Shown here piece after piece: positions 31,928 to 62,261 of a DNA stretch of 64,000 nt. Source of the stretch: Lachnospiraceae bacterium (GTDB lineage Bacteria > Bacillota > Clostridia > Lachnospirales > Lachnospiraceae); assembly GCA_015057025.1 (NCBI GenBank), contig SVFD01000001.1, positions 310,001 to 374,000 on the forward strand, in the 5' to 3' direction. Every line of letters starts with the position of its first letter. Positions within the stretch are counted from its first letter, which is position 1. The position numbers and the translations under genes were made by a program. The notes beneath the pieces are model-generated. The model had not been told where the DNA came from, made no database searches, and saw only the letters and a list, made by a program, of their open reading frames with translations.

Positions 31928-33649
31928 ATGGATTGCAGAACCCGTATTATTTCCAACGACTATGCTGATTTGATTGTAGATTTTGATTTAGAAGAGAATA
32001 TGTTAGAAAATACCGCAGGTGACTTCTGTTTTTATCAGGTAGAAGACAACCTGCGGATTTTTTATGTGAATCGGGAAGAATTGCCGGATTTGTCCTTGTC
32101 GGATTATCGGTATTTATATCTGCCGGTTTGTTATGGATTAATGCAGAATGGCGGTGTTGTTCCCAGCGGATTTAATACATTGGCCTTAGAGGACAGCGGA
32201 ATATTAAGAGTACAGAGAGAACCCCTTGCATTAACCGGAAGTGGTTGCATTTTTGCTTGCATTGATAGTGGCATTGATTACACGAATGCAGTTTTTAAAC
32301 GGGAAGACGGAAGCAGTCGCATTCTTGCAATCTGGGATCAGGAAGAGCAGGGCGGCACACCGCCGGAGGGCTTTTTATATGGCAGTGAGTATGTAAGGGC
32401 GCAGATAAATGAAGCCTTACAGTCAGAGAATCCTTTGGAAGTGGTTCCCACAACCGATATATCGGGAAGGCATGGTACTGCCCTTGCAAGTATTGCGGCG
32501 GGCAGCAGTATAAATGAGGGTGATACTTTTCTGGGAGGAGCACCGGATACGGATATTGTTATTGTAAAATTAAAACAGGCAAAGCAGTATCTGCGGGAAT
32601 ATTACCTGGTACCGGAAGGAACACCCTGCTATCAGGAAAATGATATTTTAACGGCACTAAAATATGTGGCAGGTTTTGCCCGGACTGCAAAGAGACCTGT
32701 GTGTATCTGTCTCGGACTTGGCAGCAGTTTTGGTGATCATGCGGGTAACTCTTTATTAGAACGTTATATCGGCAGATTAAATGCAAGGCGTAACATAGCC
32801 GTGGTTGTCCCGGCAGGAAATGAAGGAAACAGCGGACATCATTATCGGGCCGTGTTTGCCAAGGAAGATGTAAATCCCATACGTGAAGCGGAAATCAGAG
32901 TGGGTGAAGGTAACAGAGGTTTTATTGCGGAAATTTGGGGAAGCGTACCGAATTATTTCTCAATTTCACTTCGCTCCCCCGGCGGGGAAGAAATCAGGGA
33001 TATTTCATTTCGGCTTGATACAACCAGAATATATGACTTTGTTTATTCAGAAACAAGGGTGACGGTTGACGCCCTTTTGGTAGAACAGGTTTCCGGGCAA
33101 CAGCTGGTAGTTATGCGTTTTGAGGAACCGACCCCCGGTGTATGGACGATAGGAATACGTTCAGAAGAAACTACGGTTTTGGCTGTCTGTGATATATGGT
33201 TGCCGATAAAACAGTTTTTAACAGGAGAAACATATTTTTTAGAACCATCGCCTTATATTACATTAACTGCTCCGGCAACAGGGCAGTCTGCTATGTGTGT
33301 GTCGGCATATAATGGAACTACAAGAGGCTTCTATCAGGAATCCGGCAGAGGATATACAAGGGCAAATCTGATCAAGCCGGATTTTTCTGCACCGGGAGCA
33401 AATGTATCGGCTGTTATAGGGGCAGTAAGTGGTACGGGAGCTGCCGCTGCCATAACGGCAGGGGCTGTTTTACAATTTATGCAGTGGGCGGTTGTTGAAG
33501 GAAATGCACCGTTGGTAAACGGAGTAGAGATTAAAAATTATTTTATCCGGGGAGCAAGAAGAGATACGTCTTTAAATTGGCCAAATCAGGAGCAGGGATA
33601 CGGACAGTTGGATATTTTTGAAACCTTTGAGCGATTAAGAAGGGTATAA
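31928..33649 (+). CDS. S8 subtilase-family protein lacking the catalytic serine (pseudoprotease candidate)
   Basis: 573 residues, no signal peptide. The subtilase fold signs are clear: Asp box ACIDSGID (D113), His box SGRHGT (H182), oxyanion Asn in PAGNEG (N298) and the final box SGTGAAAAITAG. The position that should be the nucleophilic serine (GTS) is glycine G504 (codon GGA at 33437). A long insertion (~300-470) sits between the His and Ser boxes as in CspB-like clostridial proteases. Loss of serine predicts no peptidase activity, similar in principle to the CspA/CspC pseudoproteases. No signal peptide suggests a cytoplasmic or sporulation role. Start ATG behind AGGGAG. Confidence 0.85.
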   Translation: MDCRTRIISNDYADLIVDFDLEENMLENTAGDFCFYQVEDNLRIFYVNREELPDLSLSDYRYLYLPVCYGLMQNGGVVPSGFNTLALEDSGILRVQREPLALTGSGCIFACIDSGIDYTNAVFKREDGSSRILAIWDQEEQGGTPPEGFLYGSEYVRAQINEALQSENPLEVVPTTDISGRHGTALASIAAGSSINEGDTFLGGAPDTDIVIVKLKQAKQYLREYYLVPEGTPCYQENDILTALKYVAGFARTAKRPVCICLGLGSSFGDHAGNSLLERYIGRLNARRNIAVVVPAGNEGNSGHHYRAVFAKEDVNPIREAEIRVGEGNRGFIAEIWGSVPNYFSISLRSPGGEEIRDISFRLDTTRIYDFVYSETRVTVDALLVEQVSGQQLVVMRFEEPTPGVWTIGIRSEETTVLAVCDIWLPIKQFLTGETYFLEPSPYITLTAPATGQSAMCVSAYNGTTRGFYQESGRGYTRANLIKPDFSAPGANVSAVIGAVSGTGAAAAITAGAVLQFMQWAVVEGNAPLVNGVEIKNYFIRGARRDTSLNWPNQEQGYGQLDIFETFERLRRV

Positions 33650-33650
33650 T

Positions 33651-33915
33651 ATTCCAAATTGGAATAAAAAAAGACGATATTTATATGTAAAATATTCCGA
33701 ACTGGAATATTTTACATATATAAGCTTGTGTAATATTCCATGTTGGAATAAATAATCTTAATTTGCGAGAATAAATATTCCAATATGGAATAAAAAGGTT
33801 AATCCACAAAAGTAAATATTCCAAATCGGAATAATAAGATTAATTTGCGAGAGTGAATATTCCAAAATGGAATAAAAAAGACTAGTTTGTGAGAGTAAAT
33901 ATTCTAATTTGGAAT
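33651..33915. repeat. Seven phased ATTCC-N5-GGAAT palindromes
   Basis: This is the only content of the 387-bp gap between the S8 gene and the response regulator apart from a promoter. The 15-bp units lie at 33651-33665, 33694-33708, 33735-33749, 33777-33791, 33818-33832, 33859-33873 and 33901-33915 (the last has ATTCT). Centre distances are 43, 41, 42, 41, 41 and 42 bp, close to four helical turns. The sequence between the later copies is also similar (TTAATTTGCGAGAGT-like), so the array is a tandem ~41-bp repeat. Copy 2 extends into a perfect 17-bp-arm inverted repeat (33682-33698 with 33704-33720). It looks like a multi-operator regulatory region. Confidence 0.9.
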
Positions 33916-33935
33916 AATGAAAGGTAAAAAGAAGT

Positions 33936-33963
33936 TTGAAGAAAATATACTACATGCTATAAT
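33936..33963 (+). promoter_or_regulatory. Sigma-A promoter for the response regulator-kinase operon
   Basis: TTGAAG (33936-33941), 16-bp spacer, TATAAT (33958-33963). The predicted start near 33970 puts the centre of the nearest palindrome (33908) at about -62, a usual class I activator position. Confidence 0.7.
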
Positions 33964-34036
33964 GTAGGCAAATATATGTCATAAATGACAGAATTATGTA
34001 GTTGGCAGATTGTGGTTTTGAAGTGAGAACAGACGA

Positions 34037-34765
34037 ATGAAAAGAATATTAATTTTAGAAGACGAACCGTTAATAAGAAATATGGTAAAACAACTGATTG
34101 AAGAGTCAGAAGTAAAAGCTGATGTATATGATTTTGATAATGTGAAAGAAGCTTATCAATGTGCTTTAGAAAAACAAATCGATTGTTTTATTGCAGATAT
34201 TATTCTGGATACTAAAACACCGGGGGATACTTCGGGCTTGAAATTTGTGGAAAGCATTCGTAAAATAAAGAAGTATACTTTGACACCTGTAATTATGCTA
34301 ACTTCTTTACAGGATATGAAGTATTGTACTTATGATGTCTTTCATGTTTACAGCTTTGTGGAGAAGCCCTTCGCACCGGAGCGTTTGAAACATTTGATAG
34401 AAGAGTGTTTCGGTGGAGAGACGGCAGAGGCAGAGAAGCATTTGTTTTTTCATGTAGACGGCATCATTATGACCGTTGAGTTGAAAGATTTCGTATATGC
34501 AGAGAAGCAAAATAGGGGAATGTTGATACATACGAATCAACATGGAGTGCTGAAGGTTTCATATAAGACTTTGAAAGCATTATTGGAAGAAGCGGCTTGT
34601 GATGATTTGATTCAATGCAGTCGTTTCTGTGTGGTAAATCGTAATTATATTGAAAGTTATGATTCTGTAAATTGCATGATTCAATTAAAAAACAACCACG
34701 GCTTGATAGACGTAGGTGGAAGGTACAAAAGGGTTTTGGAAGAAGGTTACTTTAGAAAATGTTGA
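34037..34765 (+). CDS. LytTR-family response regulator (AgrA-like)
   Basis: 242 residues: receiver domain (~1-122) with acidic pocket EDE near the start, phospho-acceptor D in FIADIILD, and conserved T and K (MLTSLQ, VEKPF); then a LytTR DNA-binding domain (~140-240) with FVYAEKQNRGMLIHT, FCVVNRNYIESYDS and GRYKRVLEEGYF. This architecture is that of AgrA/VirR regulators controlled by peptide-sensing GHKL kinases. The kinase gene overlaps its end by 7 bp. Confidence 0.92.
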   Translation: MKRILILEDEPLIRNMVKQLIEESEVKADVYDFDNVKEAYQCALEKQIDCFIADIILDTKTPGDTSGLKFVESIRKIKKYTLTPVIMLTSLQDMKYCTYDVFHVYSFVEKPFAPERLKHLIEECFGGETAEAEKHLFFHVDGIIMTVELKDFVYAEKQNRGMLIHTNQHGVLKVSYKTLKALLEEAACDDLIQCSRFCVVNRNYIESYDSVNCMIQLKNNHGLIDVGGRYKRVLEEGYFRKC

Positions 34766-36033
34766 TGATAGTAAATTTAATGGTTGAATTGCTGGCACTA
34801 TTTATATGTGTGCATGCTGTACATGGTAAAAAGTTGAAAGTAGATGTGGCTACGGTTGCTACATATGTTTCCATGATTGCAATTATGTTTCTGAGTAATA
34901 CATTTGAATGGCATAGTGCAGTAGTTATTATTACTTATATATTTTTATATCTGTTTTGCGTATTTCAGTTTAAGCAGGGACCGGCATCTGCATTTGTGAG
35001 TGTGGTATTAGCTATGATACTTATAGTGGTGATACAGTTTTGTTGTGTTATAGTCTTTGCTCTTCTTCCTGATTTTGACGAGACACTTAGAGGATTTATC
35101 ATTAATATTATTACTGTATGGATTATCGTTTTTTTGTCAGTTAAAGTTGAACTGAATAAATTAAAAGAAATTATATGCCGAAGACATTGGTTAATGTATA
35201 GCATCATGGCGTTTACCTTGATTGTAGTTATGCTATCTTTGATACAAATGAAGAAAAATAGTTCCATTAATGTCGGTTTCTTTGCTTTTGGTATTCCGTC
35301 TATTGCTTTGATTTTTTGTTTGTTAGTTTATTGGGATAAATCCAGCAATGCAGAGAAAGAGTTAAAGGCGGAGAGGGATACCATGCTACTTATGAAGGAT
35401 AATTATGATGATTTAGTAGTAAGAGTAAAAGAAAATCAGCATGGTATCAATAACCATATGATGGCAGTATTATCCTCTCATTATGCTTATAAGAGTTATG
35501 ATGACTTGGTAGAAGCCCAGCAGGAATATTGTGACACCATTCAGGAGGAAAATAAGTATAACAGTCTGGTCTTAATTAATAATTCTACTTTAGGCGGTTT
35601 TCTCTATGCTAAGCTACAGGAAATGGAAGGAAAGGGTATTGATATAGAATATAGGATTCTTACACAGGTATGTGAATGTGAGATGCCCTATTACTATATC
35701 GTAGAGTCCTTGGGAGTACTTCTTGATAATGCTGCAGAGGCAGTTCTGTCCTCTGATTTGGAGAAGCAGGTTTCTTTTGAGGTGTCTAAGAGAGATTCAC
35801 ACTATATTTTTACGATTCGTAATGTATTTCGTCAGGTAGACTTTGAGGAAATAGAGCATTGGTTTTATCGGGGAGTGACTAGCAAGGGAGAAGGTCATGG
35901 TATCGGGTTGCATCGTGTTCGGAATCTTTGTGAAAAACATGGTTGTGAGATTACCTGTAGGAATGTAAGTTTAGATGATAAGAATTGGATAGAGTTTAAC
36001 TTGATAATTAGGGAAAAGGAAGGCGATGCATAG
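34759..36033 (+). CDS. GHKL sensor histidine kinase (AgrC-like) 1
   Basis: 424 residues. About six or seven membrane helices (1-~195) form the sensor; the cytoplasmic part has the phospho-acceptor region ENQHGINNHMMAV (~232-245), a dimerisation helix and a GHKL ATPase domain with N-box GVLLDNAAEAV and G-box GHGIGLHRVRN. It overlaps the response regulator, so the two are a coupled pair. It is convergent with agrD, with a shared terminator between. The likely ligand is the AgrD-derived cyclic peptide. Confidence 0.9.
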   Translation: MLMIVNLMVELLALFICVHAVHGKKLKVDVATVATYVSMIAIMFLSNTFEWHSAVVIITYIFLYLFCVFQFKQGPASAFVSVVLAMILIVVIQFCCVIVFALLPDFDETLRGFIINIITVWIIVFLSVKVELNKLKEIICRRHWLMYSIMAFTLIVVMLSLIQMKKNSSINVGFFAFGIPSIALIFCLLVYWDKSSNAEKELKAERDTMLLMKDNYDDLVVRVKENQHGINNHMMAVLSSHYAYKSYDDLVEAQQEYCDTIQEENKYNSLVLINNSTLGGFLYAKLQEMEGKGIDIEYRILTQVCECEMPYYYIVESLGVLLDNAAEAVLSSDLEKQVSFEVSKRDSHYIFTIRNVFRQVDFEEIEHWFYRGVTSKGEGHGIGLHRVRNLCEKHGCEITCRNVSLDDKNWIEFNLIIREKEGDA

Positions 36034-36041
36034 GCATCGTC
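36022..36041. terminator. Bidirectional terminator between kinase 1 and agrD
   Basis: GGCGATGC and GCATCGTC form an 8-bp stem (one G-U) with an ATAG loop that contains the end of the kinase stop codon. T/C-rich tracts follow on both strands. Confidence 0.65.
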
Positions 36042-36045
36042 TTCT

Positions 36046-36168
36046 TTATTCTTCTTCCGGAGAAGGAAAGGGTTCTTCGCCAAAAAGGAGAAAACTTGGG
36101 GAACCACCTTCGAACCACCATGAAAATCCCGCACATGCACTCAAAATCTTAGCAATCCATTCTGTCAT
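36046..36168 (-). CDS. agrD: AgrD-type cyclic autoinducer peptide precursor (serine core)
   Basis: A 40-codon ORF starting inside the end of agrB (20-bp overlap) behind a perfect AGGAGG 8 bp before the ATG. The layout fits AgrD: an amphipathic N-terminal leader (TEWIAKILSA...), a hydrophobic core SPSFLLF, then an acidic, proline-containing recognition tail GEEPFPSPEEE. The expected ring-forming cysteine is missing; S25 (S-F-L-L-F) is the best candidate nucleophile, giving a lactone, with S23 or the more distant C12 as less likely options. It is co-transcribed with its processing protease AgrB. Confidence 0.82.
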   Translation of the reverse strand: MTEWIAKILSACAGFSWWFEGGSPSFLLFGEEPFPSPEEE

Positions 36169-36718
36169 TTTCTTGTCCTCCTTTCTTACGTATTTTCGCC
36201 ACAATCAATTGCAACGAATGGGTTATGATTACCCAGAAGCCTACATGTAATAATTCAGCTTCGGGGAAAAACATCAATATCAGGGTATAAACCAATATAA
36301 AGCCGGAAGCAATTGACCTAAAATACATTTTTCGGTCACCAGTGGTTTCCTTGCGGTATTTTGATACCACAGGACCGATACCAAAGCATACAAGTATGGA
36401 AAACATCAGCATTAGAAGCTGTATCGGTAAAGGAAGCTGTATCATGGGCAGAATCACAATGGAGAGAGCCATATAACTAATTGACATCAGAAGGCACCCC
36501 CAATAGGTATAGAAATGGATTCCACCGGTAGAACAACGCAGAAATAACATAATGAACAATGCAAAAAAATACTCCGGTAAAAGCTGATGAAACAATAACG
36601 CCATAATCAGGGTTTTACTGACTTCGGAGAAGATACTTTTAAAAAGAAAGATAACACAGGCAGCCTGATAACCGGTTAAGTGATATGTATCCTTTAAATA
36701 CGATTTTACCTTGTCCAT
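36149..36718 (-). CDS. agrB: AgrB, autoinducer peptide-processing membrane protease
   Basis: 189 residues with four to six membrane helices. The catalytic motif is intact: L-R-C-S-T-G-G-I-H-x6-C, giving the His and Cys of the cysteine endopeptidase. AgrB removes the AgrD tail and closes the (thio)lactone ring at the membrane. GGAG 5 bp before the ATG. The end overlaps agrD. Its strand is opposite to both kinases, so signal synthesis and sensing can be regulated separately. Confidence 0.93.
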   Translation of the reverse strand: MDKVKSYLKDTYHLTGYQAACVIFLFKSIFSEVSKTLIMALLFHQLLPEYFFALFIMLFLRCSTGGIHFYTYWGCLLMSISYMALSIVILPMIQLPLPIQLLMLMFSILVCFGIGPVVSKYRKETTGDRKMYFRSIASGFILVYTLILMFFPEAELLHVGFWVIITHSLQLIVAKIRKKGGQENDRMDC

Positions 36719-36782
36719 AATTGCTCCACTCTCAATATCTGGTTATATCCTTTTGCTGCTAAATAGCGGCAACAAAGAGAAT

Positions 36783-36797
36783 ATCTCCAATTGGAAT
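36783..36797. promoter_or_regulatory. Degenerate copy of the palindrome upstream of agrB
   Basis: It matches ATTCC-N5-GGAAT at 8 of 10 positions (right half perfect, left half ATCTC). It lies 65 bp upstream of the agrB start in the agrB/kinase-2 divergent region. A link to the seven-copy array is suggestive only. Confidence 0.35.
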
Positions 36798-36925
36798 GAA
36801 ATTACGGATTTTTGTTTGAAATAAGAGAATTTCGCCTCTAAATTATAATGAAATGTGTTTTAAAACATTGAGAGGATTAGAAATTGAATTTTGAAACAAA
36901 AAAAGCATAATTCACGCAAAAAATG

Positions 36926-36953
36926 TTGAGATTTGTCAAAAAGATTTTATACT
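36926..36953 (+). promoter_or_regulatory. Promoter for GHKL kinase 2
   Basis: TTGAGA (36926-36931), 16-bp spacer, TATACT (36948-36953), about 30 bp before the ATG at 36985. The rest of the 266-bp divergent region holds an AT palindrome GTTTTAAAAC (36857-36866) and no clear agrB promoter. Confidence 0.55.
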
Positions 36954-36984
36954 TAACAGATTAAAATGTTTAGGAGTGTGACTT

Positions 36985-38274
36985 ATGTTATTTTGGATTG
37001 AGAATCTCATTGCAACTGTGATTACCGTATTCTGTATTGTGCAATTATTTGAAACATTTGGTCCTTCACGCTATAGTATGAAATTTATAGGGAAGGCGGC
37101 AATCCTTGTACTGTTGGGAATCGGTCTGTTTTTTATAGCTATGTGTCCGGAGAATTTGTTTTATATAAGATGGATAATAAGCTTTCTATTAATTACCATT
37201 ACCATGTGCATATATAAGGGATTCCGTCTAATGAGGACGTTATATATGTCTGTTTTTGTTTTTATGCTGATTGAACTTATGGAAGTTCCGGGGCAATTTG
37301 CAGAAATGTTACTAAACACCCATTTCCCGGATGTGCAGATTTGGGCACTTTTATCCATGCTTATAACCAAAGGACTTTTAATAGGTCTTATCTTTGGCTT
37401 AAAACGCATTTTTATTAAAAAGATGTCGTTGTTTTCACTAAATGGTGCGTGGATGGCATTTGCTTTTATTCCCTTCGGAACCCTTCTGGTAATCGGAATT
37501 TTTTTAGCTGCGCTTAGCGGTGTTAAGCTTCATATGGGATGGGTTGTATTTATGGTGACAGCGTTACTTATTGTGAATATTGCGGCCTTTTATATGATAG
37601 CGGATATGATACAACGTCAGATATATATATTAAATGAACAGACGATTAAAGAGCAGAATGAGAATAGATTAAAATCCTATGAAACTATTGCAGAATGCTT
37701 GGATGAGCAACGAAGCAGAACTCACGAATATAAAAATTATATTCACTGTATATATTATCTTATGGAGATGGGGAAGCAGGAGGAAGTGCGTAAATATGTA
37801 AATGATCTTCGCTACGGCATGCATTTGAAAAATGTGGTTGTCTGTGAGACGAAGCATATATTAATTGATGCCATAGTCAATGCAAAACACAAGGAGGCAA
37901 CTGCCAAAGGAATTAAATTTAGTGTCCAGGCAGAAAAACTTCATAATTGTACAATACAAGACGAAGATATTATTGTTATCATTTCCAATTTGTTAAATAA
38001 TGCAGTAGAAGCTGCAGAAAAATTGGAAGAGAATCCGTATATTTTTGTAAAAATAAAAGAGACTGAGGATACATTACAAATTCAGGTGAAGAATTCGCAC
38101 ACGGGTCAGATTCAGGTGGCAGATGGTGAAATTGCTACCGGTAAAAAAGAGGATAGTGCCAATCACGGATTTGGGATAAAAAACGTGAAAACAGCCGTAA
38201 ATAAGTATGGCGGACAGTGTAATATATCTTATACGGACAGTGAATTTACGGTAGATGTTGAGATTTCGCTGTGA
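36985..38274 (+). CDS. GHKL sensor histidine kinase (AgrC-like) 2
   Basis: 429 residues: six membrane helices (~1-215), then phospho-acceptor region RTHEYKNYIHCIYYLME (~245-262) and GHKL ATPase domain with N-box ISNLLNNAVEAAE and G-box ANHGFGIKNVKT. It has no response regulator beside it and is transcribed divergently from agrB. It may sense the same peptide and share the LytTR regulator, or act as a phosphatase/antagonist of kinase 1. The two kinases differ strongly in their sensor helices. Confidence 0.9.
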   Translation: MLFWIENLIATVITVFCIVQLFETFGPSRYSMKFIGKAAILVLLGIGLFFIAMCPENLFYIRWIISFLLITITMCIYKGFRLMRTLYMSVFVFMLIELMEVPGQFAEMLLNTHFPDVQIWALLSMLITKGLLIGLIFGLKRIFIKKMSLFSLNGAWMAFAFIPFGTLLVIGIFLAALSGVKLHMGWVVFMVTALLIVNIAAFYMIADMIQRQIYILNEQTIKEQNENRLKSYETIAECLDEQRSRTHEYKNYIHCIYYLMEMGKQEEVRKYVNDLRYGMHLKNVVVCETKHILIDAIVNAKHKEATAKGIKFSVQAEKLHNCTIQDEDIIVIISNLLNNAVEAAEKLEENPYIFVKIKETEDTLQIQVKNSHTGQIQVADGEIATGKKEDSANHGFGIKNVKTAVNKYGGQCNISYTDSEFTVDVEISL

Positions 38275-38302
38275 CATTTTATTTGAAATATTGTGAAAAG
38301 TG

Positions 38303-38340
38303 CCGATTTTTTGAAAGTTGAAAAATCGGTCTTTTCTTTC
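38303..38340 (+). terminator. Intrinsic terminator after kinase 2
   Basis: CCGATTTTT (38303-38311) pairs perfectly with AAAAATCGG (38321-38329), then TCTTTTCTTTCT. Confidence 0.85.
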
Positions 38341-38549: not shown

Positions 38550-40328
38550 TTGAGAACTTATTTGCGTATGAAAAAGGGTTTTAGTTTATGTTGTACTTTG
38601 GCTTTGTTAGCGGCTATGTTGGGTCTGCCTTTATCGGTGCAGGCACAAGATAATCATTTGACGATTCCGTTATATCATAAACATATAGCGGAATGTGAGG
38701 GAACGGTATATAAAACAATATCTGCTGACGGAACCAGACGCTCTTCCACAACACATAAAGGGACTTGTGCTTGCGGTTCTAATGTGGATTATTATTCATT
38801 TTACGGAACGTGTTCCTGCGGAAATACATGGTACACTACCGGTCATGCCTGCGATAACAGTCAGTATGGTCCAAAACACGGAAATTGTTCTAATTACTCG
38901 ATATTAAACACCAATACTTCCCACAGTCATCCGTTTCAGGAGTATGTTTGCGGACAAACGGAAGAAACGGTCATTGAAACGGTTGTGGTAGAAAAAGATT
39001 GTTATCTTCCGGCAGCAAGTGTTTCATTGACTGCTTATGCCCAAGGCTGTCTTGAAGGGATTGTTTTATCATGGGGAAACGGGATACAAGGACATACAAT
39101 TACCGTAGAGGAAAACGGTAGTTATCCGCTGTATATTACATATTCTGAAAACGGCATTGAGTATATGACGGAAGCTTCGGTAGAAGTGGATAATATTGAT
39201 AAGGAGCCGCCGTCCATAGAAGAGATAAAGATTAGTGAAAGCGAATTTACCTCGGAAGATATCTGTTTGACTGTAGAAGTGGGGGATAGTTATGGTCTGC
39301 CGGAGGAATGTATCCGTTGGAACGGAGGAACTTTTACATCAGAGAGAGAATTTGTGGTAACGGATAACGGCATTTATGAAGTAGTGGTACAGGATTATGC
39401 CGGAAATCAGATAGTACAAACTATAGAAATTACTAATATTGATAAAACGGCACCGCAATTGAAAGGGATTACTACGCAACCCACACCATGGTATGAAGGA
39501 AGCTGTATCGTTAAGATTGAGGCAGAAGATTTGGGAAATGGCAATGCGGGCAGCGGTCTTTGTGAAGATGCGTATTCCTGGGACGGAGGTGTAACATGGA
39601 GCGCAAATAATACTTTTACATTAGAAGAGCCGGGGAATATAACAGTTTTGATAAAAGATAAAGTTGGAAATATAAAAGAAGAGACGTTTGAAGTAAAGCG
39701 GCAGATAAGACAGAGCAATGCCGGCGGTAATATAACGCAAGATGAATCGTCGGAAGATAAGGAGACTGAGGAAGAGACATCGGAGGATGGTGTAGATGAA
39801 AAGAGAGAATTTTTTCGGGAAATTTTAACAAATGATTTGGCAGAGGAAAAAGCATCGGAGGAGATAAAAGAAGAAACAAATGCACGTGTAGAAGTTGTGA
39901 CAAAGGAACCGGAAGAATTTAAGACTGCAGAAGAGATTGTTATCCCGCAAACAGTAACAGAGGATACCTCTAAAAGAACAAATAGGACGGTTGTGTTATG
40001 GACAATTTGCATATCTTTAGGAACCGGACTATGTGGAGTTACAGGCATGATTTTATTTGTTTTATTTGGATTATGTCGTGTTTTCGAAACGGACGAAAAC
40101 GGAAAAGATAAGTTTCTTGGAAGTGTGGGCGTCCGTTTACACCAAAAAGGATATATTACGGTAATTAGCAGCAGTCTGGCTCATAAAGCTAAGAGTCGCA
40201 ATCTTAAAATTAAAATACCGGCATGGTTTGTAAAAAATGCACGATATAAATTATTACGGATAAAAGTAGGAAATCAAACAATAGACAAATATGTAGAAAA
40301 AGAAGTTTGCTTCCACATTCATATGTAA
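38550..40328 (+). CDS. Secreted cysteine-rich, membrane-anchored surface protein (unknown function)
   Basis: 592 residues. A signal peptide ends near residue 31 (VQAQD). A Cys/His-rich head (~35-150; CACG, CSCG, HSH) could bind metal or form disulfides. Three or so Ig-like repeats follow, separated by V-D/T-N-I-D-K-E/T boundaries (~150-390). A Glu/Thr-rich stalk leads to a transmembrane helix (~480-509) and an ~80-residue basic C-terminal domain predicted inside the cell. The TTG at 38550 is preferred: AAAGGAG sits 8 bp before it, while the ATG 18 bp further in is too far. It is placed directly behind the Agr kinases, so quorum control is plausible but unproved. Confidence 0.75.
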   Translation: MRTYLRMKKGFSLCCTLALLAAMLGLPLSVQAQDNHLTIPLYHKHIAECEGTVYKTISADGTRRSSTTHKGTCACGSNVDYYSFYGTCSCGNTWYTTGHACDNSQYGPKHGNCSNYSILNTNTSHSHPFQEYVCGQTEETVIETVVVEKDCYLPAASVSLTAYAQGCLEGIVLSWGNGIQGHTITVEENGSYPLYITYSENGIEYMTEASVEVDNIDKEPPSIEEIKISESEFTSEDICLTVEVGDSYGLPEECIRWNGGTFTSEREFVVTDNGIYEVVVQDYAGNQIVQTIEITNIDKTAPQLKGITTQPTPWYEGSCIVKIEAEDLGNGNAGSGLCEDAYSWDGGVTWSANNTFTLEEPGNITVLIKDKVGNIKEETFEVKRQIRQSNAGGNITQDESSEDKETEEETSEDGVDEKREFFREILTNDLAEEKASEEIKEETNARVEVVTKEPEEFKTAEEIVIPQTVTEDTSKRTNRTVVLWTICISLGTGLCGVTGMILFVLFGLCRVFETDENGKDKFLGSVGVRLHQKGYITVISSSLAHKAKSRNLKIKIPAWFVKNARYKLLRIKVGNQTIDKYVEKEVCFHIHM

Positions 40329-42198: not shown

Positions 42199-42369
42199 GT
42201 GATTATAAACACATATAAGAACTTAACGCAAGAAGAAAAACTGACTATCTACACAAGGTTATTACAAATTATGAATAGGGAGGAAATCGCCAATGATGAA
42301 ACAATCCGCGATATACGCAAGACAGTCAGTAGACAAAAAGGAAAGCCTGAGCATCGAGGGACAAATTGA
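42199..42369 (+). CDS. Small ORF overlapping the recombinase start (56 aa, possible)
   Basis: GTG-start ORF behind AAGGTG, 12 bp after the predicted transcription start. The first ~35 residues are charged and helix-like (IINTYKNLTQEEKL...). The last ~25 codons overlap the recombinase in another frame and may be passenger sequence. It may be a small regulator or excision factor, or only a translational leader for the recombinase. Not recognised. Confidence 0.4.
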   Translation: MIINTYKNLTQEEKLTIYTRLLQIMNREEIANDETIRDIRKTVSRQKGKPEHRGTN

Positions 42370-43819
42370 ACTATGCCAGCAGAAAGCACCTAATGCAGTT
42401 ATTTACAAAGATAAGGGGTATAGCGGTAAAAACACCGAGCGTCCAGATTTTCAAAAATTGATTGCAGATATTAAAGCTGATAAGATTGACAAGGTAGTCG
42501 TTTATAAGATTGACCGAATTAGCAGAAATATTGTTGATTTCTATGGGTTGTGGGAAATTATGGAAAAGCACAACTGTGAAATTATAAGTCATAGTGAACC
42601 GATAGATACTACTTCAACATATGGACGCGGAATGATGGGCATACTTGCCATATTTGCCCAAATGGAACGCGAGAACATTCAAAAGCGTGTCAAAGATAAT
42701 TACTACTATCGAACCGCACAAACTGGAAGTTGGGCAGGTGGACCTGCACCCTATGGGTTCAAGAATGGGCGGAACGAACAAGGCAAGCCGACATTGATAC
42801 CCATTGAGGAAGAAATGGAGGCGGTAATGTCTGCCTTTGCTTTGTATTATGGTGCTGATACCTGCACACTTGGCGAGGTTGCCAGATGGCTGAATGAAAA
42901 CGGATATAAGCCCCATAAGCGAGAAGTGTTTGATAGTGTGACGGTATCGAAAATTTTACAAAATCCGATTTATGTAAAAGCCGATAAAACATTGTATTCA
43001 TATTTTAAAACAAGAAAAATCAATTTTTTGAATGATGAGGCAAACTGGAACGGTTCAACCAGTGCACACATTATCGGTAAAAAAGTCGGCAATTCAAACA
43101 TTAGAAAATACACCACATTAAAAGAACAGAGCATTTATCTTACAAATTTTGCAGGTGTTATTGAAAGTGTAATTTATATCAATGTGCAGGAACGCTTGGC
43201 AAGAAATGAACAGTTTGCAAGGGCAAACGCAGGCGGAGTACTGGAAGAATTAAGTGGAAAATTAAAGTGCAGTTGTTGCGGATATGCTATCAAATCATAT
43301 AGCAAAAGCACAAACGGCCGCCCCTATCTTGATTGTTACGGAAATCGCAGTCTGCACATATGCAGTGAAAAGTATAATAAAATCAATTTTTATGATTTGC
43401 AGAAAGTAATCGGCAACGAAATACAAAAACAGTTAGATGATTTGGAAAATCTGCGACATAAAAAAGAACTTGAAAGTGCTGAAATCGAAAAGCAGATTAT
43501 TCAGATTAAAGCCGATATTGATAAACTGATAGAATTATCCCTGCATAGTGATTTAACTGCCGAGGCACTTGCTTCTGCCATTGAAAAGAAGCAAACTGAA
43601 TTAAATCAACTGGAATTAAAATTACAGATGAATAAGACTTCAGCCAGTATGACAAAAGTGTACTTTTCTTCTAATGTCAATATTCGGAATGAATTTAAAA
43701 ACGGTATCGTATATGAAGATTTGCACCCAGACCAAAAGAAAGAAGTTGTAAAATTGATGATTGATAAAATCAATCTTACGGCTGATATTGAAAATCTGGA
43801 AATTGAATGGAATATTTAA
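42293..43819 (+). CDS. Large serine recombinase (site-specific integrase)
   Basis: 508 residues: N-terminal resolvase catalytic domain (~1-145) with the nucleophile in Y-A-R-Q-S, DKGYSGKNTERP and YKIDRISRN; recombinase domain (~165-270); zinc ribbon (~320-370) with CSCCG...C...C; and C-terminal coiled coil (~380-450). This class integrates circles between attP and attB with a central dinucleotide, here GA. Located at the left end, reading inward. SD GGGAGG upstream. Confidence 0.95.
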   Translation: MMKQSAIYARQSVDKKESLSIEGQIELCQQKAPNAVIYKDKGYSGKNTERPDFQKLIADIKADKIDKVVVYKIDRISRNIVDFYGLWEIMEKHNCEIISHSEPIDTTSTYGRGMMGILAIFAQMERENIQKRVKDNYYYRTAQTGSWAGGPAPYGFKNGRNEQGKPTLIPIEEEMEAVMSAFALYYGADTCTLGEVARWLNENGYKPHKREVFDSVTVSKILQNPIYVKADKTLYSYFKTRKINFLNDEANWNGSTSAHIIGKKVGNSNIRKYTTLKEQSIYLTNFAGVIESVIYINVQERLARNEQFARANAGGVLEELSGKLKCSCCGYAIKSYSKSTNGRPYLDCYGNRSLHICSEKYNKINFYDLQKVIGNEIQKQLDDLENLRHKKELESAEIEKQIIQIKADIDKLIELSLHSDLTAEALASAIEKKQTELNQLELKLQMNKTSASMTKVYFSSNVNIRNEFKNGIVYEDLHPDQKKEVVKLMIDKINLTADIENLEIEWNI

Positions 43820-43827
43820 GACTAAAA

Positions 43828-43860
43828 AGGGGGAGCCGCTTTTACGGTTCCCCCTAATTG
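43828..43860. terminator. Bidirectional terminator between recombinase and rep
   Basis: AGGGGGAGCCG (43828-43838) pairs with CGGTTCCCCCT (43845-43855), one G-U, between convergent genes, with T/A-rich flanks. Confidence 0.85.
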
Positions 43861-43862
43861 TT

Positions 43863-45113
43863 TTACATTGCCTTATCTAATTCGTTCATAAGTAAGTCGT
43901 TGTGTCGGTACAACATATCAACTTTATTTTGTAGGTCTTGTTCTTTGGGCGTTAGTGTTTCGGTGCTTGGTGCAGGAGCTTCTGATTTGCCAGTAAGTTC
44001 AGCCCCTGAAACTAACAAGGTATTGATATAGTTGAGTTTTTCTTCTTCGGTGCGTTCTATCTTTGGGTACATTGTTGCAACGGGGTTGACATATTCAAAT
44101 TCTTCGGAGTAGTCCCCAGTGTTGTCATCAAAGAGGCTTGCATAGTATCGGTCTTGTTCAAAGCGCAAATGTAATTTACACCGACGCTTTAATTGAACAA
44201 TAGGTTCTTTCTGTTCTTTAAACACCCCATTGAAAAATTCATCAATTTTCAATACCGAAGTCACGATAATTAGTTTACATTCCAAAACTTTGTTTTTGTA
44301 TCGGCTTTTAACCGTGGAAGCGGTGTTATTATCTAGCATTTTTAACAAGTCGCTTAACCCCATACAACTGGGTCTTAAATCGTCAAGGATAATGCAGTCT
44401 TGTCCTGCATATCCGTCAAGCACATCATTTGAGCCACTAGATACGAATACGCTATACCCTTTATCTTCACACATCATTTTTGCGTATGTACTTTTGCCAG
44501 TTCCACTTTTTCCAGTAATATATACACATTCCATATTTCTTTTTTCCCCCTTTATAATATCGGTTCTGTATTTAAACGCATTGTCGATAGACTTTTTATA
44601 CTTGTCGTATTCTTCAATGGTAATATGTTCGTGATAGTTAAATTCACGAATATCACCGCTTACAATGTCATTTATGATTTGGATTTTTCTTGCTTCACTA
44701 TTTGATTTGCTGATTGCTTTGGTCTTTTCTACTTTCCAGTTGTAATTGCTGATAACTTCTTCTTCGGCATACTGGAATTTGGTGGGTGCGTTTTCATGGG
44801 TAAGATATTTTAGCATATCAACCCACTTTCCTTTTACCCTGTTGATAAAGTTTTCTTTGATACCTAACCAGTTGGCAATATACTTGGTGTCGGTACCATA
44901 TTCCAGTCGGATAGCAATATGATAATGAGCCTTTTTGAGTGTGCCTGCCTTGTGGTTGGGGTTCTTGGCTTCATCATCTTTACTATAAGTATCTTTGTTA
45001 TGTAAGATATAGGCATAATCTTTGAATGGTTTTTGATTGTCTAATACTTTTTTGATTTCTTCAATGTTGATGTGTTCCACATCTGATACAATTTCACATA
45101 ATCTAACCTGCAT
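43863..45113 (-). CDS. Rolling-circle Rep protein with P-loop helicase domain
   Basis: 416 residues. The N-terminal part (~1-140) is a HUH-type Rep domain: LCEIVSDVEHI, AYILHNKD and the metal-binding H-Y-H in KKAHYHIAIR, with the later YLTHENAP. A P-loop NTPase/helicase follows (~195-320): TGKSGTGKST Walker A, CIILDDLRP Walker B and IIVTSV sensor. The tail (~380-416) is coiled. The combination is known from small Firmicute plasmids and IMEs and would nick the origin and replicate the excised circle. AGGAGG precedes the ATG. Confidence 0.87.
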   Translation of the reverse strand: MQVRLCEIVSDVEHINIEEIKKVLDNQKPFKDYAYILHNKDTYSKDDEAKNPNHKAGTLKKAHYHIAIRLEYGTDTKYIANWLGIKENFINRVKGKWVDMLKYLTHENAPTKFQYAEEEVISNYNWKVEKTKAISKSNSEARKIQIINDIVSGDIREFNYHEHITIEEYDKYKKSIDNAFKYRTDIIKGEKRNMECVYITGKSGTGKSTYAKMMCEDKGYSVFVSSGSNDVLDGYAGQDCIILDDLRPSCMGLSDLLKMLDNNTASTVKSRYKNKVLECKLIIVTSVLKIDEFFNGVFKEQKEPIVQLKRRCKLHLRFEQDRYYASLFDDNTGDYSEEFEYVNPVATMYPKIERTEEEKLNYINTLLVSGAELTGKSEAPAPSTETLTPKEQDLQNKVDMLYRHNDLLMNELDKAM

Positions 45114-45131
45114 ATAAATTCCTCCTATGAT

Positions 45132-45224
45132 TTTTACTACATACGACAGTAAAACTACGCCGAACAGACAAGCCCACTGTTCGGCTATTTTTCTAGCTTT
45201 GCAATGGTTTTACTACATACGACA
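45132..45224. other. Candidate double-strand origin: direct repeats flanking a hairpin
   Basis: A 17-bp sequence, TTTTACTACATACGACA, occurs at 45132-45148 and again at 45208-45224. Between them, GCCGAACAG/CTGTTCGGC (45159-45167 with 45177-45185) form a 9-bp stem with a 9-nt loop. On the plus strand the stem is followed by TATTTTT and may also terminate transcription. It is immediately upstream of rep, the usual place of a Rep-binding/nick region. The remaining 45225-45427 holds no other clear feature. Confidence 0.5.
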
Positions 45225-45427
45225 ACTTTGGTTTCATAAGTAATATGCAAGATGTGATTGGGGATAAATTCTTCTGTATAGCCTTTTTGTTTCAAAAATT
45301 GGAACTTTGTTTCGGATAATGAAACAATCATAAATGAAGTATCAAAAATTGATTTAAAACCTTGGAAAATTGATTTTTCATCTTGAAGAAAATGCAGAAC
45401 GCATATTTATGATAAGGGGGTGAAGTT

Positions 45428-45568
45428 ATGGAAATAGATAAAATGACACTTGATCAAATTTATGAATGGGTAAAAGCGGAATGCGAGGAAGAAAGCAGGG
45501 CAAAAGCGGAAACCGAGTATTTGCTTCAAAAAAGCAAATATGAAGCAAGCAAAGATGAGGAGAGATAA
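45428..45568 (+). CDS. Small acidic helical protein (46 aa)
   Basis: ATG start behind GGGGGTGAAG. The 46 residues (EIDKMTLDQIYEWVKAE...) are rich in Glu, Lys and Ala and predicted helical throughout. Followed at once by a terminator, so it is a separate short unit. Function unknown; small ORFs of this type near rep/mob genes can be copy-control or excision factors, but nothing here proves it. Confidence 0.55.
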   Translation: MEIDKMTLDQIYEWVKAECEEESRAKAETEYLLQKSKYEASKDEER

Positions 45569-45582
45569 TTCTCCTCATTTTT
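45555..45582 (+). terminator. Terminator overlapping the small ORF end
   Basis: ATGAGGAGA (45555-45563) pairs with TCTCCTCAT (45570-45578), loop GATAAT containing the stop codon, then TTTTT. Confidence 0.85.
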
Positions 45583-45591
45583 GCTTTTAGC

Positions 45592-45640
45592 GGGTTAAGG
45601 GTGCAACGCCTTACCCATAAGAATTTGAGCCCTGCTCAAA
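45592..45640. other. Candidate oriT upstream of the relaxase
   Basis: Two inverted repeats lie in the 156-bp gap before mob: GGGTTAAGG/CCTTACCC (45592-45600 with 45609-45616, one extra T) and TTTGAGC/GCTCAAA (45624-45630 with 45634-45640). Relaxase nick sites usually lie beside such repeats just upstream of the mob gene. Confidence 0.4.
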
Positions 45641-45724
45641 ATCTGTATTGGGTTATTGTGTTGAGCGGTTTCCTGCTTGGTGTCGGGTGGTCTTTCATTC
45701 TGTTATCGAGGGGAGGGATATAGA

Positions 45725-46633
45725 ATGAAAGCAACACTACACATAGGCAGGGGAACAGTAAAACACAATGAAAGGAAATTCAATTTAAACAATGCTACCC
45801 ATATAGACCAGACAAGACAAAATGAAAACTTTTACATTAACCGATATTTAGATGATGCTATCACTTTTGAGGAATGTGAAAGGCGTTATTATCAAGAGAA
45901 TTATTTGCAGGGTTTGGAGGCACAAAATGAAAAATACAGAAAGCGCCGACAGTATGGGTATATCCGTAGCATTGATGATTTATTGAAAGGGGAAAAAACA
46001 CAACCCAAAGAAATGATTTTACAGATAGGAAATAAGGACAACCACCCTGACAAAGAAGTCCTTTTAAAATGTATCTATCAGTTTAATGAAGAATTTAATC
46101 GGAGATATGGAACAAATGCCCATATCCTTGATATTGCAATTCATAACGATGAGACCACTTCGCATGCGCATATTCGTTTTATCTGTGATTATACGGACAA
46201 AGACGGGATAAAGAAAATATGCACCGATAAGGCATTAAAGGCATTAGGAATTAAACCACCAAAGGAAACCGCCAAAGCGGACAGATACAATAACGCCTTG
46301 CAAACTTTTACCGAGCAAATCCGTCTTATCTGGAACACCATAATAAAAAGAAATGGAATTGAAATTGATGAAACCGTACACAATGCAAGCCAGAAGCATT
46401 TGACGGTATTGGAATATAAGGATAAAAAACTACAGGAAGAAATAGAAAAACATAATAAGCAGATAGCAGGGCAGAATTTGGAAATCCGACAAAAGAAAAA
46501 TGCCTTGTATGATTTGGATAGGCAGATAAGCACCAAAGAGAAGAAAGTAGAAGAATTGGAAGAAAAATTATATGTAAATGCACAAGGCGAAGATTTTAGG
46601 GATATGCGTCCAGTATTTGCAGATGAAAGATAA
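45725..46633 (+). CDS. MobV/Pre-family relaxase
   Basis: 302 residues. The Mob_Pre pattern is visible: RGTVKHNERKFN...HIDQTRQNENFYIN near the N-terminus and the metal-binding histidine cluster HNDETTSHAHIRF (~145-157), followed by a C-terminal coiled coil (~215-290). Such enzymes nick oriT and allow transfer by a helper conjugative element. The ATG at 45725 follows GGGGAGGG; the longer frame from 45677 has no binding site. At ~300 residues it is on the short side for the family. Confidence 0.88.
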   Translation: MKATLHIGRGTVKHNERKFNLNNATHIDQTRQNENFYINRYLDDAITFEECERRYYQENYLQGLEAQNEKYRKRRQYGYIRSIDDLLKGEKTQPKEMILQIGNKDNHPDKEVLLKCIYQFNEEFNRRYGTNAHILDIAIHNDETTSHAHIRFICDYTDKDGIKKICTDKALKALGIKPPKETAKADRYNNALQTFTEQIRLIWNTIIKRNGIEIDETVHNASQKHLTVLEYKDKKLQEEIEKHNKQIAGQNLEIRQKKNALYDLDRQISTKEKKVEELEEKLYVNAQGEDFRDMRPVFADER

Positions 46634-60677: not shown

Positions 60678-62261
60678 ATGAGTCAGGATCATATCATTCT
60701 TCAGTTTATAAAAAAGGTGCGTAAGCGTTTGTGCAGAAATATTTTTGTACAGACGATGTTATGGGCATTATTTGCGGGAATGACGGCATGGGGATTATTT
60801 AACTTCATAGCCTTGTTTGTGCCTTTTTATGCTGCGGTATTTTATGGTTTCCTGGCTTTTATTGTGTGCCAGATTGTAGGAATTGTCATTGCAATTAAGC
60901 GTTATCCCAGTATGAAAAAAACAACCATTCAGATTGACAGCAGAGGATTAAAAGAGAGAGTTACTACTGCCTATGAGTTGTCGGGGAAAAATGATTTATG
61001 CAGTCAATTACAAAAAAATGACACAATTGAAAATATCAGAGGAATTAAAATTCGAAAGAGTTTTCCGTTAAACATTAAGAAAAGAATGTATCTTATTTTG
61101 TTTGGTGCGTTAATTTTTACGGTAACTACGGCAATGATTCCGTCTAAAACCAAGCAGGAGGCCAGAGAAATACATAATCTTCAGGAGCAGATTGAAGAAA
61201 AAGAAGAAGCTCTGGAAGCAATGGTTGAAGAGATAAAAGAAAATTATAATCTGACAGACGAGCAGGCTGAAGCTTTGGAAAATCTTTTGAATGATGCGAA
61301 AGAAGAATTACAGAATGCCACCGGACAGGAAGATATGGATAAGGTGGAAGAACGTTTTGAAACCAAGTTAGAACAACAGTTTATTGACCCGTTGGAAAAC
61401 CAGAAAGAAGCTGAAGCCATAGAGAACAGTCTGCAGAATATGTTGGAAGGAAATAATCTGACGCAGGAGGAACAGCAGGCAGTGGCTGAGCAGTTGGAGC
61501 AATTGGCACAGAATGCCCAGGATCAGCATATGCAGGAGATTGCGCAACAGATGCAACAGGAACTGCAACAAAACGGAGAAATTTCTTCGGAGACCTTGGG
61601 ACAGGCACAACAGCAGGTACAGCAATATATTGAAGATAATCAGGGACAAATAGGCCAACAAGGTCAGCAAGGTCAGCAAGGTCAGCAAGGCCAGGAAGGC
61701 CAACAAGGTCAGCAAGGTCAGCAAGGCCAGGAAGGCCAACAAGGTCAGCAAGGTCAGCAAGGCCAGGAAGGTCAACAAGGTCAGCAGGGCCAGCAAGGTC
61801 AACAAGGTCAGCAAGGTCAAGAGGGTCAGCAGGGCCAGCAAGGCCAACAAGGTCAGCAGGGTCAACAAGGCCAACAAGGTCAGCAGGGGCAAGGCTCCGG
61901 TGAGGGTTCAGGTGATGGACAAAGCGGAAATAACTCCGGAACCGGTGGAGGTGGCGGCACCGGCTGGTATGATGGTAGTCAATACGGAGAAGAAATGGAA
62001 GGAAATTCCGGCGGAGAACGTATCATGATTCCGGATGAGGATATGATGAGTGATGAAAATTTAACCGGTCAGGCTAATGCTAATGGTCAGTCGTATTTGA
62101 CAGAATCTGATCAGGTGGCGACATGGAGTGGAGAATCGGTGTCTTATGATCAGGTAATCGGTAATTATACCAATCAGGCTTATACCAATATGGAAAGCAG
62201 TAATATTCCCGATTCCATGAAAGACCTGGTTATAGATTATTTTACGGAATTAAACGAGTAA
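60678..62261 (+). CDS. Membrane protein with coiled coil and Gly-Gln-Gln repeat tract
   Basis: 527 residues: two N-terminal helices (~28-75), a cytoplasmic or external region, a third helix (~136-155), a long Glu/Gln coiled coil (~165-315) and then 26 G-Q-Q/E triplets (~326-403), a Gly-rich stretch and a conserved-looking C-terminal ~120 residues. The layout matches the DUF4175-like/BatC-like members encoded beside MoxR and DUF58 genes. GGAGG precedes the ATG. The repeat tract is coded by near-identical 9-bp units. Confidence 0.7.
   Translation: MSQDHIILQFIKKVRKRLCRNIFVQTMLWALFAGMTAWGLFNFIALFVPFYAAVFYGFLAFIVCQIVGIVIAIKRYPSMKKTTIQIDSRGLKERVTTAYELSGKNDLCSQLQKNDTIENIRGIKIRKSFPLNIKKRMYLILFGALIFTVTTAMIPSKTKQEAREIHNLQEQIEEKEEALEAMVEEIKENYNLTDEQAEALENLLNDAKEELQNATGQEDMDKVEERFETKLEQQFIDPLENQKEAEAIENSLQNMLEGNNLTQEEQQAVAEQLEQLAQNAQDQHMQEIAQQMQQELQQNGEISSETLGQAQQQVQQYIEDNQGQIGQQGQQGQQGQQGQEGQQGQQGQQGQEGQQGQQGQQGQEGQQGQQGQQGQQGQQGQEGQQGQQGQQGQQGQQGQQGQQGQGSGEGSGDGQSGNNSGTGGGGGTGWYDGSQYGEEMEGNSGGERIMIPDEDMMSDENLTGQANANGQSYLTESDQVATWSGESVSYDQVIGNYTNQAYTNMESSNIPDSMKDLVIDYFTELNE
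61653..61886 (+). repeat. 9-bp tandem repeat coding G-Q-Q/G-Q-E (26 units)
   Basis: Units of the type GGTCAGCAA, with GAA/GAG (Glu) every fourth unit in the first part, giving a 36-bp higher-order period. In-frame and uninterrupted; length variation by slippage is likely. Confidence 0.92.

Follow-up and report, generated by a model that had tools for sequence, protein, structure and literature searches.

An array of seven regularly spaced palindromes upstream of an agr-type response regulator operon in a Lachnospiraceae bacterium

Introduction

The closest described counterparts of the locus reported here are promoters served by LytTR regulators. In Staphylococcus, AgrA acts from boxes at the agr P2 and P3 promoters, in a position of about -60 (PMC4227749), and in the streptococcal sil locus SilA has sites upstream of its promoters (PMC2766830); for HigX, a LytTR factor of Caulobacter, an inverted-repeat motif has been reported (PMC13384398). 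We describe an array of seven palindromes in a 64,000-nucleotide stretch of DNA from a Lachnospiraceae bacterium, referred to below, at its full length, as the window. The array lies upstream of the operon of a LytTR response regulator (RR) and a sensor kinase (HK1), and the centre nearest to the predicted start, at about -62, falls close to where AgrA acts. We consider it very probable that the array serves as some form of operator, and weigh which protein may read it.

Results

The array of ATTCC-N5-GGAAT palindromes occupies window positions 33651-33915, between a subtilase-like gene and the RR gene. Six of its sites are exact: ATTCCAAATTGGAAT (33651-33665, beginning 2 bp after the subtilase stop), ATTCCGAACTGGAAT (33694-33708), ATTCCATGTTGGAAT (33735-33749), ATTCCAATATGGAAT (33777-33791), ATTCCAAATCGGAAT (33818-33832), and ATTCCAAAATGGAAT (33859-33873). 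The seventh and last, ATTCTAATTTGGAAT (33901-33915), has one mismatch. The centres run from 33658 to 33908 with spacings of 43, 41, 42, 41, 41, and 42 bp; palindrome 2 is also the centre of a perfect inverted repeat with 17-bp arms (33682-33720), and part of the array is recognisable as a tandem 41-bp repeat of 4.5 copies (33732-33917). The seven-site array with these spacings, put forward by the first-pass annotation, is real and non-random: at one mismatch or fewer the motif has 10 matches in the window, where shuffles average 3.0, and seven of the 10 matches are packed into 265 bp. A promoter-like sequence, TTGAAG-16-TATAAT with a TG extension (33936-33963, plus strand), predicts a start near 33970 and hence a nearest palindrome centre near -62, which agrees with the activator-like distance proposed earlier. 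The leader of the RR operon also contains a perfect palindrome that is rare in the window (TGTCATAAATGACA, 33977-33990), possibly a second operator.

Conservation across the array is concentrated in the palindromes. Pairwise identity among the sites is 97% in the half-sites and 100% in the left AAT flank, whereas the 5-bp spacer and the left-anchored linkers reach 56% and 33%, respectively, and each of the 13 invariant columns belongs to the half-sites and flanks. Constancy of half-sites and flanks with drifting spacers and linkers is as expected for binding sites under selection, and the array has the features of a multi-site operator, namely a repeated dyad, conserved half-sites, and variable spacer and linkers. 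The linkers after sites 3-6 are related to each other (alignment z 2.9-6.2), whereas linkers 1 and 2 are mostly unrelated to the others (z < 1.5, except linker 1 vs. 6, z 2.6), which indicates that sites 3-7 spread by tandem duplication; sites 1 and 2 share little apart from the palindrome and the spacing. The earlier proposal that a 41-bp unit was amplified in tandem therefore holds for sites 3-7 and not for sites 1-2. The sites are consistent with helical phasing (resultant 0.95 at 10.4 bp per turn and 0.81 at 10.5), with a spacing partly inherited from duplication. Because sites 3-7 arose in this way, their regular spacing is not independent evidence of phasing, and the spacing of sites 1-3, with their unrelated linkers, is a better sign of constraint.

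We find that the motif is concentrated at this locus. The 2.65-Mb genome has 13 exact matches per strand, against 5 for a reversed control, and 6 of the 13 are in the array; with one more base on each side and one mismatch allowed, the whole genome has 24 matches against 20 for the control, 7 of the 24 being the array. Beyond the array, nine of the 10 copies inspected, including all inspected exact copies, lie inside ORFs, and one near-copy (C6:180077) adjoins a start codon. Scatter through the genome, which the first-pass annotation had named as evidence against its reading, is thus not what the genome-wide pattern search found. Since the inspected outside copies are nearly all intragenic and the longer motif's totals stand at control level, the reader of the motif appears to serve the array locus specifically, which would favour a local regulator.

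The unit that follows the array has the composition of an agr-type cluster, with AgrB, GHKL sensor kinases, and a LytTR response regulator. RR (34037-34765, plus strand), with receiver and LytTR domains (PF00072 and PF04397), is the only recognised DNA-binding protein of the cluster, and next to it lies the GHKL kinase HK1 (34759-36033, plus strand; PF14501), which has weak AgrC similarity. On the minus strand are agrB (36149-36718; PF04647, E 8.6e-21), for peptide processing and export, and, overlapping its end, a probable agrD (36046-36168; MTEWIAKILSACAGFSWWFEGGSPSFLLFGEEPFPSPEEE) assigned by position and composition, whose 40-aa product has an acidic, proline-rich tail and no Pfam match. 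HK2 (36985-38274, plus strand; PF14501) is a second GHKL kinase in a cluster without a second response regulator, and a terminator-like hairpin (AAAGTGCCGATTTT..AAAATCGGTCTTTTC; 38297-38340, plus strand), also present at the empty site in two relatives, marks the right-hand limit. The subtilase upstream of the array (31928-33649) resembles the germination proteases CspBA/CspC, below family cut-offs. Elsewhere in the window, 42293-46633 is a likely integrated mobile element with a large serine recombinase, a Rep-like protein, and a MobV-like relaxase, and 61652-61885 is a long 9/27/36-bp tandem repeat within an ORF (CAAGGTCAG units).

Matches to RR at E 1e-12 or better were identified in 68 of 397 family genomes, the source genome included, with identities up to about 47%; none were found in viral contigs. 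The usual gene order among the relatives examined is [HTH gene]-RR-HK1, convergent with agrBD. By inspection, about 17 of 29 relatives have an HTH/XRE gene directly before RR and ending close to its start (L191-L196, L198, L200, L202-L207, L209, L211, and L212; HTH_3 Pfam-confirmed for one relative), in the position that the array holds here. No array of repeated dyads precedes the RR operon in the relatives examined, and a search of the source genome with one such XRE protein as query did not find an orthologue of this partner (best E 0.013). Words resembling TAGTCAnnnATAGG recur near the transcription start in several of the relatives' operon promoters, perhaps as an HTH operator, and LytTR pairs in these promoters are mostly non-significant.

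In the relatives, the agrBD promoters contain TTCAG(C/T)CAAAA (TTCAGCCAAAA) as direct repeats 20-22 bp apart, of the ordinary LytTR type and unlike the array. We scored sites with a LytTR matrix built from eight promoters of RR relatives (RR 37-46% identical), several of the p-values being uncorrected single-test values; the direct repeats reach a leave-one-out p of at most 0.025 in five of the eight. On this matrix the array region shows no LytTR direct-repeat pair (its best candidates have p 0.38 and 0.64), and for the array half-site the score falls short of background. Self-identity of the array at lag 21 (0.31 vs. 0.32 for background) likewise gives no sign of canonical direct repeats of 9-10 bp units about 21 bp apart. 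The first-pass annotation had doubted a LytTR reader, as such regulators normally bind direct repeats; the conventional repeats of the relatives strengthen that doubt, to which the inverted-repeat motif of HigX is a counterpoint.

Upstream of agrB we find weak LytTR-type direct repeats (approximately 36789-36840, minus strand; best pair p = 0.03) and a weak array-like site, TATCTCCAATTGGAATG (the ATTCCAATTGGAgAT site; 36782-36798, p = 0.044 for that intergenic stretch), which is the best palindrome-like site beyond the array among the cluster's intergenic stretches. The word ATTCCAA, common to the array and the agrB promoter, was rejected as a decisive link, its calibrated p being 0.044. The LytTR contact motif, QCSR against RCHN in AgrA, is altered across the whole RR group and was dropped as a mark of an array-linked RR because it is common to that group.

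The array is known from one genome. Pattern searches of other sampled genomes, 396 from the family and 391 from the order, found no comparable array, and in the scan of genome contigs with a pattern of 20 specified bases the matches listed were unrelated repeats. Viral contigs, and the plasmids and phages searched by DNA, yielded no similar array, and none of the loose array-like matches in the family lies near an RR relative. Tandem ATTCC-N5-GGAAT-like repeats with a 23-bp period occur in Treponema metagenome-assembled genomes, and one genome of the family has a similar 23-bp repeat within an ORF, both unrelated to the window array (loci noted for such repeats: L054, L105, L119, L140, L286, and L287, of which L105 and L119 are Treponema).

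In two genomes of the same genus (G001 and G020), the syntenic site lacks both array and cluster: the gene immediately after the subtilase orthologue (79% identity in G001 and 75% in G020) is the orthologue of the one at 38550, and the empty site has the same terminator-like hairpin as lies 3' of HK2 here. This joint absence indicates that array and cluster (about 33650-38280) were gained or lost as a single unit. A search of 30 other genomes of the genus gave no match to this agrB at E 1e-8, which favours gain of the unit over its loss.

Discussion

Our preferred reading, held tentatively and at somewhat short of an even chance, is that the array is the operator of the RR-HK1 operon and is read by the cluster's own LytTR RR. 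Each 15-17 bp palindrome (AATATTCCA-nnn-TGGAATA) would bind one transcription factor dimer, so that seven dimers, spaced about 41-42 bp from one another, would line up on roughly one side of the helix, possibly with the cooperative, switch-like binding that the first-pass annotation suggested. From near -62, the dimer closest to the operon promoter would act on RNA polymerase there, presumably in activation rather than repression. RR, the most likely reader, would be phosphorylated by HK1 and/or HK2 upon the AgrD peptide, and its reading of an array upstream of its own operon would amount to autoactivation. Locality, the dedicated motif, the -62 position, and the HigX inverted-repeat precedent argue for RR, as do the joint absence of array and cluster in the two relatives and the weak array-like site upstream of agrB; the direct repeats that form the relatives' site type weaken the case, and the lack of an array before the relatives' RR operons and the weakness of the array-like match in the agrB region also count against it. 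Going further, RR may have exchanged two direct repeats for a seven-fold inverted-repeat array that stands in place of the relatives' HTH partner gene, so that a circuit of two regulators would have become a steep, autoactivating one, a history that we regard as rather unlikely.

RR is only slightly favoured as the reader over a dimeric regulator unlinked to the cluster. Inverted half-sites one helical turn (10 bp) apart are typical of HTH dimers, and the array half-sites have this separation; a helix-turn-helix regulator encoded elsewhere in the genome could place the signalling operon under another pathway. As the HTH/XRE genes of the relatives indicate, a second regulator is usual in the family at the array position, and the relatives' LytTR boxes are unlike the array. 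However, the one query for the XRE partner found no orthologue in the source genome, and a trans-acting regulator should have other intergenic targets, of which none stands out.

It is improbable that the array is not an operator and that its palindromes form hairpins in the 3' end of the subtilase mRNA, or make up a neutral tandem repeat. The array does begin directly after the subtilase stop, it folds as RNA far better than shuffles (z -9.7), and it includes the long arms of site 2 and a tandemly repeated part; but any set of palindromes folds strongly, individual stems here are short and rich in A+T, no site resembling a terminator was found at the array, and neutral drift would not spare half-sites and flanks while spacers and linkers change. 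Less probable by far is that a mobile element delivered the cluster, with the array as its end or recombination site. Although the array does lie at the left limit of the unit absent from two relatives, no recombinase or transposase was recognised in the unit, its right limit has no counterpart (best score 2.6, in the stretch from HK2 to the next gene), and searches of phage, plasmid, and viral collections found no similar array.

Should RR read the array, the locus would represent a natural shift in LytTR site geometry while the relatives keep the usual direct repeats, and specificity and switch steepness would be directly comparable between them. Should another protein read it, the locus would show how a signalling cluster that lacks its usual HTH partner is brought under different control.

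Among known systems, the [XRE]-RR-HK1/agrBD clusters of the relatives (L297-L301, L304, L306, and L307) have the same genes, mostly in convergent order, with core-set RR 37-46% identical; they differ in often having an HTH gene in the array's place and in the LytTR direct repeats of the agrBD promoter, and a close HK2 orthologue is absent from the stretches examined around them. Staphylococcal AgrA is likewise a LytTR regulator in an agr-type cluster, with a proximal site near -60 and an autoactivating circuit, but its boxes are two direct repeats (PMC4227749), whereas those here are inverted and seven-fold. SilA, likewise a peptide-signalled LytTR regulator that acts upstream of its promoters, differs in using two 10-bp direct repeats with an 11-bp spacer (PMC2766830). 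The HigX motif, although made of two 8-bp halves without a spacer, not in tandem, of other sequence, and belonging to a transmembrane protein, is like the array an inverted repeat, and one that has been assigned to a LytTR protein (PMC13384398).
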